Positions 11,588-47,254 of a stretch of 53,298 nucleotides of DNA are shown in pieces. The position numbers and the translations under genes are program-made. Positions within the stretch are counted from its first letter, which is position 1; the number at the start of each line of letters is the position of its first letter. The stretch comes from a virus, in the IMG/VR virus record IMGVR_UViG_3300042691_044167, positions 1-53,298 of that record; one strand, given 5' to 3'. The notes under the pieces are model-generated. The model ran no database searches, was not told the origin of the DNA, and saw only the letters and a list, made by a program, of their open reading frames with translations.

Positions 11588-13201
11588 TTAGTTTTTTGAG
11601 CGGTAACTCGGCCTTTTAGGCGGGGGCTCGTAGTCGGTTTTGTGTTTAATCCAGCCAGAATCCAATAGCCTCTTGAGTGCTTGTGTCATTGAGTCCACTA
11701 AATCGTTAGATTCAGAGGATGGGAATAAAGCTGCCATATCTACCATAGTCTTTGCATAGCCTCGGAGTTGAGTATATGCAGGGGGTCTAGCAGGAACCCA
11801 TACACGCCCACATTCTAGAATGGGAGAAACGATTTGTGCCCTTTCCATTTTTGAGCCTTTAGGATTGAACCTGGTCACCATAATGCCTGCTCGTGATAGA
11901 TCTTGAATAAGGGATAAACCATTTGCTTTGGCTTCGACCAAAACCATATCAGGTTTACACTCTCCTATAAGAGGATTTTCCAAATCGGTGTCATGATAGT
12001 TCTTGTACATGCGTTGAGCCATGGAACGAAGTTCGGGATATTGAACTCTTCCTCTCCATAAATCGAGCAAAATAACGTGTTCAACGCCGTATTCATCTTC
12101 AAAAATTCCCCATGTGGTACAAGCAGAGAAAGCACCAAGCTCGGAGAGAGCTGTATCCCACGATTGGAGGACAAATTTGCAAGGTGGTGGTGATTCTTCT
12201 GTCCACCATTTCCAGTATTGTTTTTTGAAAATTCCCCCTTCGGCAGGAGCTGGCCGCTGTTGAAGCTGACCTGCTATAAGGTAAGGAGATCCTAAATCTC
12301 GTTTAATAGTTTCAAGTGCTTCGGGTGTGACAAAGGTTGGCCATAACAATTCCCCTTCGGTTTTGCGAGGGTCACTCCAGGGCTCGGGATAGGTGCTTTT
12401 TATGGGGACGGTCGTACAGCGGTTATGAGATTCAAATTCCATTGGGAGACACAAATGCACTAATCCTGGAATCTCTTTATCCAAAATATGCTGGGTCAAA
12501 TCCATCATGGAAAGACGTTGTTGAATATCAATTCTTGCCGTTTCGGCCGCACTGTTACCTCGGGTCGAAAATACCTGATCTCTCCATTCTCGTGCCCGTT
12601 GGTTTTTAATAACACTATAAATATCTCGAGCATCATTGCCGTCATCAACCACAAGTATATCACCACCTTCACCGCTAAGTCCGCCGCTAACCGTGGCACA
12701 TAAACGATATCCTAGCTGGGTGGTATTAAAACGTATTTTTGTATTGGAATCCTTAACCAATTTTACGTGATAACCCCACAACTTTTGAAACCATGGTGAT
12801 AAAATGAGACGGCGGCATCTCACACTGTCTTTTGTTGCGACTTCCAGTTTATGAGAGGCAAACACCATTTGCGTACTTGGATTTTTAATAAAACACCAAA
12901 CAGGAAAAATTACCGCACAAAGTGTGGATTTCATGGTTCGTGGTGGCTGATTAATGAGAAGGTTCCGGATAATTTTAGCTTGGATAAGTTCTAGGTGTTC
13001 GGCAATTACTTGAATGTGCCAGTTATCTCTAAACTCTCTTCCCCCTTCAACCCATTTCCATGCGTGCCGTGCAAAGGTGTGGAGATCGTTTTCACATTCT
13101 TTTTTGATGCGTTCTTCTTCTTCGGTTAATGTGGCTGGGATAAACGTATGTCGCTCAAGGGAGAATTTATTTTGTAATGTTTTAATAGCGTTATATTTCA
13201 T
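11588..13201 (-). CDS. terL: Terminase large subunit
   Basis: The 537-residue packaging motor has both expected domains. In the ATPase domain the P-loop-like NQPPRTMKST is at residues 84-93, the SGEGGDIL coupling region is just before Walker B, and ILVVDD is at 182-187. In the RNase H-like nuclease domain the metal-binding acidic residues are seen as QSWDTALS (D349), VLVEAKANG (E423) and NDLVDSMTQAL (D503). Length and motif order match the terminase family usual in podoviruses and lambdoid prophages. Its ATG overlaps the stop of a 49-residue membrane-protein gene (ATGA), and the small terminase candidate lies just beyond. A 96-nt gap separates it from the next gene. Confidence 0.93.
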   Translation of the reverse strand: MKYNAIKTLQNKFSLERHTFIPATLTEEEERIKKECENDLHTFARHAWKWVEGGREFRDNWHIQVIAEHLELIQAKIIRNLLINQPPRTMKSTLCAVIFPVWCFIKNPSTQMVFASHKLEVATKDSVRCRRLILSPWFQKLWGYHVKLVKDSNTKIRFNTTQLGYRLCATVSGGLSGEGGDILVVDDGNDARDIYSVIKNQRAREWRDQVFSTRGNSAAETARIDIQQRLSMMDLTQHILDKEIPGLVHLCLPMEFESHNRCTTVPIKSTYPEPWSDPRKTEGELLWPTFVTPEALETIKRDLGSPYLIAGQLQQRPAPAEGGIFKKQYWKWWTEESPPPCKFVLQSWDTALSELGAFSACTTWGIFEDEYGVEHVILLDLWRGRVQYPELRSMAQRMYKNYHDTDLENPLIGECKPDMVLVEAKANGLSLIQDLSRAGIMVTRFNPKGSKMERAQIVSPILECGRVWVPARPPAYTQLRGYAKTMVDMAALFPSSESNDLVDSMTQALKRLLDSGWIKHKTDYEPPPKRPSYRSKN

Positions 13202-24183: not shown

Positions 24184-24212
24184 TAGAGGGGGGGGGGCTG
24201 TTGCCCCCTCTA
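24184..24212 (-). other. GC hairpin directly after a stop codon
   Basis: TAGAGGGGG and CCCCCTCTA pair around a loop that includes GGGGCTGTTG. The hairpin begins at the base after the stop of the 24213-24713 gene on the minus strand. There is no T-run, so it is more likely an mRNA stability or processing element than a terminator. A near copy, including the flanking CAGTTARA, lies at 25621-25636. Confidence 0.55.
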
Positions 24213-25620: not shown

Positions 25621-25636
25621 GGGGGCTGTTGCCCCC
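25621..25636 (-). other. GC hairpin after a stop codon
   Basis: GGGGGC-TGTT-GCCCCC is a perfect 6-bp stem and 4-nt loop, 4 nt beyond the stop of the 25641-25976 gene on the minus strand. It shares sequence and flank (CAGTTAAA) with the hairpin at 24184. No T-run is present. Confidence 0.6.
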
Positions 25637-26000: not shown

Positions 26001-26015
26001 GGGGGCATAGCCCCC
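26001..26015 (-). other. GC hairpin after a stop codon
   Basis: GGGGGC-ATA-GCCCCC forms a perfect 6-bp stem 5 nt beyond the stop of the 26021-26431 gene on the minus strand. It is the third hairpin of this kind in the array. Confidence 0.6.
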
Positions 26016-34269: not shown

Positions 34270-34344
34270 TGGTGTCTCCCACGGGAGTTGAACCCATATC
34301 AACGCCTTGAAAGGGCGCTATCCTAACCTTTAGACGAGGGAGAC
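34270..34344 (-). tRNA. tRNA-Glu (UUC)
   Basis: The minus strand folds into a full cloverleaf. The acceptor stem pairs GTCTCCC with GGGAGAC, the anticodon loop CTTTCAA gives anticodon TTC (Glu), and the T arm contains GGTTCAACTCC. The CCA end is encoded. It lies 2 nt from tRNA-Cys, so both are probably processed from one transcript. Confidence 0.93.
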
Positions 34345-34346
34345 AA

Positions 34347-34420
34347 TGGAGACCGCGATTGGAATCGAACCAATGTAAAAGGATTTGCAGTCCTTGGCAT
34401 AACCACTCTGCCACACGGTC
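34347..34420 (-). tRNA. tRNA-Cys (GCA)
   Basis: The minus strand folds into a full cloverleaf. Acceptor arms GACCGTG and CGCGGTC pair (one G-U), the anticodon loop CTGCAAA gives anticodon GCA (Cys), and the T arm contains GGTTCGATTCC. The discriminator base is U, as required for Cys identity, followed by encoded CCA. Confidence 0.93.
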
Positions 34421-36576: not shown

Positions 36577-38343
<1,767 letters not shown>

Positions 38344-44145: not shown

Positions 44146-45690
44146 ATGAATCATTCCCAGCGCCTTCAAAATTTAGTTAGTCGTCCTACTTTTTCTCCTT
44201 CTCCTGAACCTGGTGTTTTTAACCCAGGTAAAAATCCTTTGGGCAACCCTGGTGTTCCAGCTGCAGCCAATATGAACGGCGCATCATCTATGAACCCTAA
44301 TAATCAAATGGTCGATGCGCATATGTCGCCTCGAGAAATCCAATTTTTTACTCAAATGCAAGGCTACCCTTCCGTAGACCCGCAAAGTGGAGTCCATTCT
44401 TTTGAAGGTTTGGCTAATAAAATGCTGCCGTTGGAATTCCTCCAAATGGCCAAAAGAAAAACGCCTCGATTTGCTAGTGGTGGATCAGTTAATCCGTTTT
44501 TGGCTAATCAATATCAAAATGCGGCTTCTCAAGGTTTAGGACCTGACAGTCAAATGGCTAGAATTCCTCTTTCGTTTGCCAATCATCTTGATTCGGTCAT
44601 GGGTGGCCCTGACATTAACCCTATGACAAATGTACGCCAATATGGGTTTTTTGATGATCTTTTGGGCGGTATTGGTTCAATGTTCTCTCCTATCATGGAC
44701 ACGGTAAAAGATATTGGTTCTGGACTCGGCGGTCTAGTCAATGATGTAATCCCTGGCGCTGGTAACATGTTAGGTGGTATTACGGGTGCTTTATCTGGAC
44801 CTCTCGGTGGAATGTTAGATGAAGTTGCGCCAGAGGTAGGACTTCCATTGCAAGCTTTAGGTGGAATAATGGGTGGTGGGGGTCAACAAGGTCAACAACA
44901 AGGCCAAAATCCATTTATGGGTATGTTAAGTGGCATGATGGGTGGCGGTCAACAAGGCCAACAAGGACAACAATCTTCACCGCTAATGAGCGGCCTCATG
45001 GGAGCGATGCAAGGTCTTGCAGGCGGCCAAGGGCTGCAAGGTGCGCTTCAAGGTGCATTAGGTGGAGCAGGGCAATCCATAATGCAAAGTAATCCTCAAT
45101 TAGGGGGAATGATGCAGCAAGGCATGAATATGATGAACGCCTATAACCAAGGCGGTCTTGGTGGTTTGATGGGGCAGGCTGGAAACATGATGGCTCAATC
45201 AGGAAATCCTTATATGCAGCAAGCTGGGAATATGATGAATGCTTATCAACAAGGTGGAATGGGTGGTTTGATGAATCAAGGCATGAACATGATGAACCAG
45301 TATGCTCCTCAAATGTCTCCATATTTGCAACAAGCTGGCAATATGTACAATGCTTATAACCAAGGCGGTTTGGGTGGTCTAGCTAGCGAAGCCATGAATA
45401 CAGCAAGTCAATATATGCCTCAATCCGAAGGTCCACCAAATCCATATTTAAGCGCTCTCAAAAATGCAGGAATGGGTGCTTATAATGCGTATCAACAAGG
45501 TGGCGGCATGAATATGGGCAATATGATGCAAGGCGCATTAGGTGGTGCAGCTCAATCTATGATGCAAAATCCAGAAGCGCATCCTTACGCGCAGATGGCG
45601 GGCGGCATGTACAACATGATGCAAAATCCGCAAATGTACCAACAACAGCCTCAATATGGGGCTCCCTATGGGATGCAAATGGGAAACTAA
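44146..45690 (+). CDS. Gly/Met/Gln-rich virion (ejection-type) protein, 0-frame product
   Basis: The 514-residue 0-frame product has a polar N-terminal region with KRKTPRFASGGSVNPFLANQ. A hydrophobic Gly-rich segment at about 165-245 contains YGFFDDLLGGIGSMFSPIMD and GLGGLVNDVIPGAGNMLGGI. A long Gly/Met/Gln/Asn repeat region with QQAGNMMNAYQQGGMGGLM units follows. The hydrophobic segment resembles one in the next gene. Such proteins are typical ejection or internal virion proteins of podoviruses, which enter the host envelope to guide DNA. The last codons are GGA AAC TAA, forming a slippery heptamer followed by a GC hairpin, so part of the product is probably extended by a -1 frameshift. Confidence 0.7.
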   Translation: MNHSQRLQNLVSRPTFSPSPEPGVFNPGKNPLGNPGVPAAANMNGASSMNPNNQMVDAHMSPREIQFFTQMQGYPSVDPQSGVHSFEGLANKMLPLEFLQMAKRKTPRFASGGSVNPFLANQYQNAASQGLGPDSQMARIPLSFANHLDSVMGGPDINPMTNVRQYGFFDDLLGGIGSMFSPIMDTVKDIGSGLGGLVNDVIPGAGNMLGGITGALSGPLGGMLDEVAPEVGLPLQALGGIMGGGGQQGQQQGQNPFMGMLSGMMGGGQQGQQGQQSSPLMSGLMGAMQGLAGGQGLQGALQGALGGAGQSIMQSNPQLGGMMQQGMNMMNAYNQGGLGGLMGQAGNMMAQSGNPYMQQAGNMMNAYQQGGMGGLMNQGMNMMNQYAPQMSPYLQQAGNMYNAYNQGGLGGLASEAMNTASQYMPQSEGPPNPYLSALKNAGMGAYNAYQQGGGMNMGNMMQGALGGAAQSMMQNPEAHPYAQMAGGMYNMMQNPQMYQQQPQYGAPYGMQMGN

Positions 45691-45708
45691 CAGGCCCCAG
45701 TGGGGGCC
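45681..45708 (+). promoter_or_regulatory. Programmed -1 ribosomal frameshift signal
   Basis: The heptamer G GGA AAC (45681-45687) is in the correct 0-frame phase, X XXY YYZ, and is followed directly by the TAA stop. After a 5-nt spacer (TAACA), GGCCCC-AGTG-GGGGCC (45693-45708) forms a 6-bp all-GC hairpin. All elements of a -1 frameshift signal are present at the usual distances. Confidence 0.8.
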
Positions 45709-45938
45709 AAAACCCTTTTACTAACCCAAGCGGCGCGCAGTCTCAAACATCTGCCGTTAAAACTAATCCACAAGATTTAGCCAACCAAGATGTGAAAAAC
45801 GTCCAGAATTTATATTCAAGTGGCAAGCTTCCCGCAAAAGATATGTTGTCATTAGAAGGGGAAAGCCTATACAAAATGGTGAAAAATGGGCAAATTTCTG
45901 AAGATGATATGGCTACAGCTATGCTGAATGATTTATAA
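45687..45938 (+). CDS. -1 frame extension of the 44146 gene (frameshift product, 597 aa total)
   Basis: After slippage the ribosome reads CTA ACA GGC CCC and continues for 83 codons to TAA at 45936-45938, giving a total of 597 residues. The extension is Gln/Asn/Ser-rich at first (GGQNPFTNPSGAQSQTSAV), matching the composition of the parent, then forms a charged helical end (DVKNVQNLYSSGKLPAKDML, then YKMVKNGQISEDDMATAML). No internal start with a ribosome site serves it, so it is expressed only by frameshifting, if at all. A sequencing indel is the alternative explanation. The next gene has its own AAGGAG, overlapping this stop. Confidence 0.72.
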   Translation, partial: LTGPSGGQNPFTNPSGAQSQTSAVKTNPQDLANQDVKNVQNLYSSGKLPAKDMLSLEGESLYKMVKNGQISEDDMATAMLNDL

Positions 45939-45951
45939 GGAGCATTCTAAA

Positions 45952-46809
45952 ATGTCAGTCGCAAATCAATTACTAAACGCAATTAATAAATCGACAGCCA
46001 ACAAATCCATTATGATTAATGGTGTCCGAATGCAGGTTGTCCATGCGTCCGAAAAAGAGCTTGACGATTTGGACAAAATTCAAGGAGGTTCTTATAAACA
46101 TAATGGAATCCCTGAATATTCAAGAATTGCGCCTTTAATCCAAATTCCGCAAGTGCGCCAAGTGTTTATTGAAGTAGCAAAAATGGCCTTTGGCGATCCT
46201 AAACAAACTCGCAAAATTAACAACCAAATGGATAATAAAAACCCTGTTAATTATTCCGATCATCCCATGCCTAATCGTTTGGCTCATGAAGTCGCTGACA
46301 AAGGAAATCAATACGATAAAAAAATTGCATATTTCCCCGTAGCTTTGTGTGAATTTTTGAATGAACATGTCTATAAAATCCTTCATCCCGATCAAGACGG
46401 TCCTCCTATTAACTCTCAAACAGGGCTTGTTGAATATAATGCGTTTGGTGATTTTTTTGGAGGAATAGGAAATGTTTTTAAAGGGGTAGTTAAAGGCGTA
46501 GGAAGTTTAGTTAGTGGTATGGGGCCAATGCTTCCAGCTATTGGCGGTTTAACATTGGGTCCTTTAGGTGCATTGGGTGGGAGCTTATTAGGAGGTCTAG
46601 GGGGAGCTTTGGGTGGAGGTGAAGGCGGAATGGGGCTTCCAGGTATGCTAGGAAATATGTTAGGAGGGTTAGGTAATCCTCTTATTACTGGCTTGTCAGC
46701 AATGCTATCCCATAAAGCCAGGCGACAACTTGCTGAAAAAACCGCCGCGGAAGATCGTTTGGCAAACTCTCAAATTCAAGCGTATGTGAGGAGTCGTGGC
46801 TTTAGATAA
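45952..46809 (+). CDS. Virion (ejection-type) protein with Gly-rich membrane-active segment
   Basis: The start at 45952 (285 residues, MSVANQLLNAINKSTA) has AAGGAG 8 nt upstream, overlapping the stop of the frameshift extension. Residues about 160-260 form a strongly hydrophobic Gly/Leu/Met-rich stretch (FGDFFGGIGNVFKGVVKGVG, then LTLGPLGALGGSLLGGLGGA). It parallels the YGFFDDLLGGIGSMF segment of the preceding gene, so the two may be paralogous over this part. The C terminus is basic and helical (HKARRQLAEKTAAEDRLANS). An internal virion protein that inserts in the host membrane during ejection is the likely role. Confidence 0.6.
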   Translation: MSVANQLLNAINKSTANKSIMINGVRMQVVHASEKELDDLDKIQGGSYKHNGIPEYSRIAPLIQIPQVRQVFIEVAKMAFGDPKQTRKINNQMDNKNPVNYSDHPMPNRLAHEVADKGNQYDKKIAYFPVALCEFLNEHVYKILHPDQDGPPINSQTGLVEYNAFGDFFGGIGNVFKGVVKGVGSLVSGMGPMLPAIGGLTLGPLGALGGSLLGGLGGALGGGEGGMGLPGMLGNMLGGLGNPLITGLSAMLSHKARRQLAEKTAAEDRLANSQIQAYVRSRGFR

Positions 46810-47254
46810 GGTACGTGTTAATACCCACTCTCAAGCATGGCTTGGTCATGGAAAAGGCCAAGCCGATGATGTTTCCACTTCTTTGCCTGTTGGAAGCTAT
46901 GTAATTGACGCACATAGTGTAAGTGCTTTAGGCGATGGTTCAACTAATGCAGGAATGAAAGTTTTAAAAAATTTTGAGCATGACGTTTTAAAAAAGTTTG
47001 GCAAAAAAATTGATCTTGATGAAGGTGTCGATTCAGAATATTTAAAAGCCTTAACATCAGATGGAGAATATCAACTCATGCCTTTAACTGTCACCTTACT
47101 CGGGCATGGTAATAACACTCAAGGTTCTCATTATCTGGATATGATGATTAAAAATTTGCGAGCGCACAAACGTTCTAATGGTTTGGGATTACCGCCAAAA
47201 GCAAAAAATATTTGGGATTATCTTCCACCTTCAGCTAGGAGAGGTAAAGTTTAA
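46796..47254 (+). CDS. Conserved phage structural-cluster protein, GTG start
   Basis: The 152-residue protein has the pattern GHGKGQADDVSTSLPVGSYV, then IDAHSVSALGDGSTNAGMKV, ending GLGLPPKAKNIWDYLPPSARR. I recognise this sequence type (G-x-GxGQxDxIPA-L-xGEYVIxAxxVSALGDGSxxAG) from many podoviral structural clusters, where it is a virion-associated protein of unknown role. It starts at GTG 46796, overlapping the previous gene by 14 nt, with AGGAG very close (2 nt), so translation probably depends on coupling. It ends at the first base of the next gene. Confidence 0.65.
   Translation: MALDKVRVNTHSQAWLGHGKGQADDVSTSLPVGSYVIDAHSVSALGDGSTNAGMKVLKNFEHDVLKKFGKKIDLDEGVDSEYLKALTSDGEYQLMPLTVTLLGHGNNTQGSHYLDMMIKNLRAHKRSNGLGLPPKAKNIWDYLPPSARRGKV

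Follow-up and report, generated by a model that had tools for sequence, protein, structure and literature searches.

Several short-tailed phages use -1 frameshifting to produce a minor, C-terminally extended form of a virion protein; this was described for gene 10 of T7/T3 (10A/10B) and for the capsids of phiEco32, SU10 and Privateer (PMC5009743, PMC7881722). In Proteus phage Privateer the site is GGGAAAG, and the minor form was detected in virions (PMC7881722). In phages T3, A2, PSA, A118 and SPP1, Ig-like or other C-terminal domains are appended by frameshifting to capsid or tail proteins; such domains are mobile, are carried by a fraction of the copies, and among relatives are joined to their carriers by in-frame, -1 and +1 solutions (PMC5009743, PMC9022992). 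Reports or predictions of the heptamer GGGAAAC as a -1 site exist for phages KL1, Colossus and HCTV-1 (PMC3483164, PMC3556154, PMC5009743), and in KL1 the predicted heptamer immediately precedes the stop at which the short form ends (PMC3483164).

A candidate site of this kind is present in a 53,298-base IMG/VR virus record, a single genome represented by one metagenomic contig, which was analyzed over its whole length and is referred to below as the window. It lies at the 3' end of a gene that we designate P1. The region contains the following features:

44146-45690, plus strand: P1, the Gly/Gln/Met-rich 0-frame (short) product of 514 aa (open reading frame with its translation; coding segment of 220.7 bits)
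45681-45687, plus strand: slippery heptamer G_GGA_AAC (GGGAAAC) in X_XXY_YYZ phase, comprising the last sense codons of P1 (sequence)
45688-45690, plus strand: TAA stop of the P1 0 frame, abutting the heptamer (sequence)
45688-45692, plus strand: 5-nt spacer TAACA between heptamer and hairpin (sequence)
45693-45708, plus strand: putative stimulatory hairpin GGCCCC-AGTG-GGGGCC, a perfect all-GC stem of 6 bp with an AGTG loop, -14.1 kcal/mol
45687-45938, plus strand: extension in the -1 frame, 83 codons after the slip (CTA ACA ... TAA), without a usable start (coding statistics)
45936-45942, plus strand: stop TAA of the extension (45936-45938), overlapping the Shine-Dalgarno sequence TAAGGAG of the next gene (sequence)
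45952-46809, plus strand: the next gene, 285 aa, Gly-rich and hydrophobic, an apparent distant paralogue of the N-terminal part of P1 (sequence similarity)
46796-47254, plus strand: a 152-aa domain of the 'GDGS..AG' / SDGEYxID type, in another frame than the preceding gene

An earlier sequence-only reading of this DNA had described the end of P1 as 514 residues closing with GGA AAC and then TAA, and a base-by-base check confirmed this, the last codons being ATG GGA AAC. It was also correct in placing the heptamer in exact X XXY YYZ phase, the all-GC 6-bp stem five bases past it, and the end of the 83-codon open -1 frame within the ribosome-binding site of the next gene. The heptamer sits in the overlap of the P1 0 frame and the -1 frame. 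The distance from TAAGGAG to ATG 45952 is nine bases, and this ATG, not the mechanical ORF start at 45928, is most likely the start of the next gene.

P1 gave no match in Pfam or PHROGs. It follows the genes for an SU10-type adaptor (PF24175, E 1e-20) and a phrog_3287 'stabilization' protein (E 6e-19) and a 98-aa gene, and the portal encoded in the same window matches phrog_1216 (E 1e-25). The tail module matches the short-tailed (podovirus-type) set, with an SU10-type adaptor, a stabilization/nozzle-type protein and a fitting portal, and it is reasonable to regard the phage as short-tailed. Gene order, Gly-rich hydrophobic stretches and homologues annotated as 'tape measure' assign P1, most likely, to the internal-virion proteins (ejection or tape-measure-like), and its homologues make its presence in the virion a reasonable supposition. 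The earlier view that P1 is not a tail assembly chaperone held, as we detected no chaperone homology and the gene is located downstream of the adaptor and stabilization/nozzle-type genes, where gene order and relatives put it in a group of Gly-rich proteins of internal-virion or tape-measure-like kind. P1 and the next gene are similar to each other (E 1e-4 to 3e-6) and therefore look like distant paralogues; the N-terminal 235 aa of P1 are related to the P1 genes of four other loci (L186, L167, L008, L089; E 1e-17 to 1e-8).

The locus resembles T7/T3 gene 10, phiEco32, SU10 and Privateer in that a shift near the end of a virion gene would lead to a minor long form. However, the shifted gene in those phages encodes the major capsid protein, whereas here it is P1, and the matches to major-head PHROGs, of which P1 has none, are found elsewhere (705-1604). 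Besides, the minor form of Privateer was seen in virions, while the long form of P1 is predicted from the sequence. With the lambda G/GT-type chaperones, including those of Burkholderia phage KL1 and Caulobacter phage Colossus, the locus shares the heptamer GGGAAAG/C (PMC3483164, PMC3556154), and the placement of GGGAAAC before the stop is the same in KL1 and P1; it differs from them in that neither tail-chaperone homology nor a long-tail tape-measure operon was recognised. As in T3, A2, PSA, A118 and SPP1, a C-terminal domain would be added to some copies of a structural protein, but here the extension is predicted to be helical (with low confidence), has no Ig-like match and belongs to another carrier gene.

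To assess the coding capacity of the -1 frame we used a codon-usage log-likelihood score trained on the long genes of the same window. The extension scored +0.339 bit/codon over 81 codons, compared with +0.287 bit/codon (sd 0.115) for true genes in frame and -0.27 and -0.30 for their off-frames. Thirty-eight of 5,222 off-frame windows of 81 codons were open at all, and none was both open and as high-scoring as the extension. Within the region, coding scores peaked at 0.48 bit/codon in the first 33 codons of the extension, which precede any ATG or GTG, and none of 6,022 off-frame windows was both open and as high. A sliding comparison located the change of coding frame, from 0 to -1, within 45670-45700, where the heptamer lies. 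The -1 frame, which the earlier reading had called compatible in composition, has the codon usage of the phage's own genes.

The extension frame contains no ATG, GTG or TTG between 45486 and GTG 45792, and neither this GTG nor ATG 45843 is preceded by a Shine-Dalgarno sequence. Shadows of other genes aside, the extension was alone in the whole window in having a strong coding signal and no usable start; the other start-less segments with coding-like scores were antisense or short shadows, or had a normal start slightly inside. The distance between the P1 stop and the next start also counts for translation: it is 261 nt here versus -14 to 68 nt in 15 relatives in which P1 is a separate gene, and such tight packing is sensible only if the extension is translated. 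Given a coding -1 frame with no start or Shine-Dalgarno sequence, the most economical reading is a translated extension that lacks a start of its own.

Taken by itself, the heptamer is a weak signal and carries no significance given the M-G-N C-terminus. The genome has 0.013 in-phase X_XXY_YYZ heptamers per codon, and, owing to the M-G-N end of the protein, 18% of synonymously shuffled versions of P1 carried one in the final position. Moreover, AAC is a weaker A-site shift codon than AAG in bacteria/E. coli (PMC5009743), which counts against frameshifting at G_GGA_AAC. The hairpin is a strong signal: its -14.1 kcal/mol was reached by 9 of 35,516 windows of 24 nt (the top 0.025% of the sequence), and the strand has only four perfect all-GC stems of 6 bp, this one included. 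Its distance of 5 nt from the heptamer falls in the range of about 5-9 nt expected of a stimulatory structure. Folded as a whole, however, the 86-nt region is no more stable than its shuffled versions (z -0.78). No other ORF in the window has at its end a heptamer together with a -1 ORF of 45 or more codons and a fold of -10 kcal/mol or lower over the next 45 nt.

The extension is predicted, with low confidence, to consist of a disordered linker rich in Gly, Pro, Ser, Thr and Asn and a C-terminal segment of three helices (AF2 model from the single sequence, pLDDT 65). It had no match in PDB or PHROGs and no detected homologue, and used as a single query it found nothing in IMG/VR; conservation therefore cannot support frameshifting. 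Insignificant similarities to tape-measure motifs (PF20155, E 0.004-0.012; PF09718, E 0.1) were dismissed, as were those to head scaffolding proteins at their C-termini (SPO1, E 2; L284, scaffolding-like by our reading, E 0.003).

Searches for relatives showed that the virus is a singleton, its TerL being at most 51% identical to anything found. As single queries for close relatives P1, the next gene and the stabilization protein yielded nothing in IMG/VR, and a DNA-level search of phages gave no match. With alignment queries we detected about 240 distant loci, together with contigs from Rickettsiales or other MAGs. The same gene order was found in Caulobacter phage GB2A, phage DSL-LC04 and dozens of IMG/VR contigs; their Gly-rich genes at this position carry the annotation 'tape measure' or hypothetical. 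The P1 genes of these phages are like P1 of the window in their place after the adaptor, the stabilization protein and a gene of roughly 80-98 aa and in shared N-terminal motifs, and differ from it at 15 loci in being encoded in a single frame with neither an end heptamer nor an extension. None of the 15 separate P1 genes, whose products are very distant (about 25-30% identical over 100-190 residues), had an in-phase heptamer in its last 10 codons or an extension. Their C-termini are often rich in Tyr, Gln and Pro and resemble ...QYGAPYGMQMGN of P1 here. In the nearest relatives by TerL (about 50%; L173, L011, L184, L303, L304 and L307 among others) P1, the next gene and the 152-aa domain form one ORF; fusion of P1 to the next gene, a difference from the window, occurs in many relatives (L011, L184, L303, L304, L307). 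Heptamer, hairpin and extension are absent from the relatives with fused genes, the hairpin is absent from all relatives found, and an automatic survey of the relatives' loci for start-less coding frames revealed none at the P1 position. It should be added that this phage family encodes the unit of P1, the next gene and the 152-aa domain as one, two or, in the window, three ORFs.

Conservation of the heptamer, the hairpin and the -1 frame, which the sequence-only reading had proposed to look for in related phages, was thus seen in no relative found, and the pattern it had named as contrary to its proposal, namely relatives with the short form only and neither heptamer nor hairpin, occurred in 15 of 15 relatives with a separate P1. 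Since all of these are very distant, the result does not so much speak against the device as show that it is neither ancestral nor widespread. In the relatives P1 ends beside its neighbour or is fused to it, and no extension is present; from this it seems that the C-terminus of the 514-aa form is ancestral and that the extension was gained in this lineage. Such a gain would be in line with the proposal that frameshifting can rescue domains that have arrived out of frame after a structural gene (PMC5009743).

We consider programmed -1 ribosomal frameshifting at the end of P1 to be the best explanation of these data and a probable one. Most ribosomes would read GGA-AAC-TAA and release the 514-aa form, while in a minority of cases the GC hairpin, five bases ahead, would hold the ribosome on G_GGA_AAC, and the ribosome would slip to GGG-AAA and continue with CTA-ACA-GGC-... 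The slipped ribosomes would add 83 residues, made up of a Gly/Pro/Ser/Thr linker followed by a small domain of helices, and stop at the TAA overlapping the ribosome-binding site of the next gene. The outcome would be two products, the short one in the majority and a long one of about 597 aa in the minority. We infer the slippage and its frequency, the entry of both forms into the particle and the acquisition of the extension by this lineage. The frameshift interpretation of the sequence-only reading finds good support in the anatomy and in the coding statistics, and none in conservation among relatives. Two other routes to a longer product were rejected. After read-through of the P1 TAA the 0 frame closes again after 28 codons and its coding score there is negative; transcriptional slippage is unlikely because there is no long homopolymer (A/T run).

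The main rival, which we regard as unlikely, is an indel in this lone contig. P1 and the extension would then be, or have recently been, one continuous frame split by a single-base change, whether an error of sequencing or assembly or a genuine mutation of the virus, and the heptamer and the hairpin would be coincidental. The record is a single metagenomic contig without a near relative, and a terminal heptamer arises in 18% of synonymous shuffles. In addition, the reading frame is broken again 1.1 kb downstream, at 46790-46809, where all relatives have an uninterrupted gene, and this makes small indels in the contig more likely a priori. On the other hand, TerL, the portal, GroEL and the genes of 1088 and 796 aa are intact and nothing else in the window looks frame-broken, the extension being the only strong start-less coding segment. 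Nor does an indel predict a hairpin in the top 0.025% or its exact 5-nt spacing from an in-phase heptamer; the frame overlap upstream of the stop contains no long homopolymer, and no relative has a continuous P1-extension frame.

Two further explanations dispense with frameshifting. A separate small gene in the -1 frame, starting at GTG 45792 or ATG 45843, or termination-reinitiation after the P1 stop appears very improbable. Reinitiation near stops is common in phages, and GTG 45792 would give a 48-aa protein with most of the predicted helical part, but the 33 codons upstream of this GTG have a coding score that no off-frame open window equals, and the frame lacks both an earlier start back to 45486 and a Shine-Dalgarno sequence before either candidate. 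Slightly less probable still is that the hairpin serves as a terminator or RNA-processing element after the P1 stop and that the -1 frame is untranslated. The hairpin is indeed located just past the stop codon, and three intergenic GC hairpins occur near minus-strand genes of the window; however, there is no T tract on the plus strand, a terminator scan listed the hairpin only on the minus strand, and it lies within the coding signal of the -1 frame.

We found no described -1 frameshift in an internal-virion or ejection protein, in agreement with the sequence-only reading, which knew of no case in this gene class, although our coverage of the literature was incomplete. Apparently, it is the gene class that would be new, the class of mechanism being already well known; likewise, of the earlier suggestion that two forms are built into one particle, the gene class seems new, but the two-form principle was already known in podoviruses (T7/T3 gene 10; phiEco32, SU10, Privateer). 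We see an even chance that P1 represents the first -1 frameshift in an internal-virion protein of a short-tailed phage, with a lineage-specific helical domain placed on a fixed minority of the copies in each particle. If programmed frameshifting in P1 is real, the DNA-ejection apparatus of short-tailed phages joins the capsid, tail-tube and chaperone genes in which frameshifting makes minor forms, and the ratio of the two P1 forms could determine the way in which the trans-envelope conduit terminates. We would also have an example of a phage recruiting a new C-terminal domain behind an existing stop and using it at low dose. The case for it is built on one contig.

Several other features of the window deserve mention. 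From 46790 the 152-aa domain is read in a frame different from that of the 285-aa gene, which closes at 46809; this is a +1 step with a 20-nt overlap, while in all relatives (L008, L012, L089, L009, L167-L188, L303-L315) the two are one ORF. GTG 46796, with AGGAG two bases upstream, could be the domain's own start, and the break at 46790-46809 may be a real gene split, a second recoding site or an indel. In L084 (10735-12135) an in-frame stop divides a gene of the SDGEYVIDA type into two pieces, both coding and both in one frame.

Three near-identical intergenic hairpins, GGGGGC-loop-GCCCCC, were found at 24193-24208, 25621-25636 and 26001-26015, just upstream of minus-strand genes and shortly before AAGGAA...ATG, and possibly represent a shared regulatory or processing element. 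The minus strand carries adjacent genes for tRNA-Glu(TTC) and tRNA-Cys(GCA) at 34270-34420 and, at 36703-38331, a full-length phage-borne GroEL of 542 aa (phrog_5725, E 9e-164), whose top-ranked match in the phage collection is 56% identical. For TerL (11588-13201, minus strand) the best relatives in GTDB genomes were found in Candidatus Bandiella numerosa (43%) and a Rickettsiales MAG (42%) (L316, L317), which hints that the family may include phages of Rickettsiales-type hosts.
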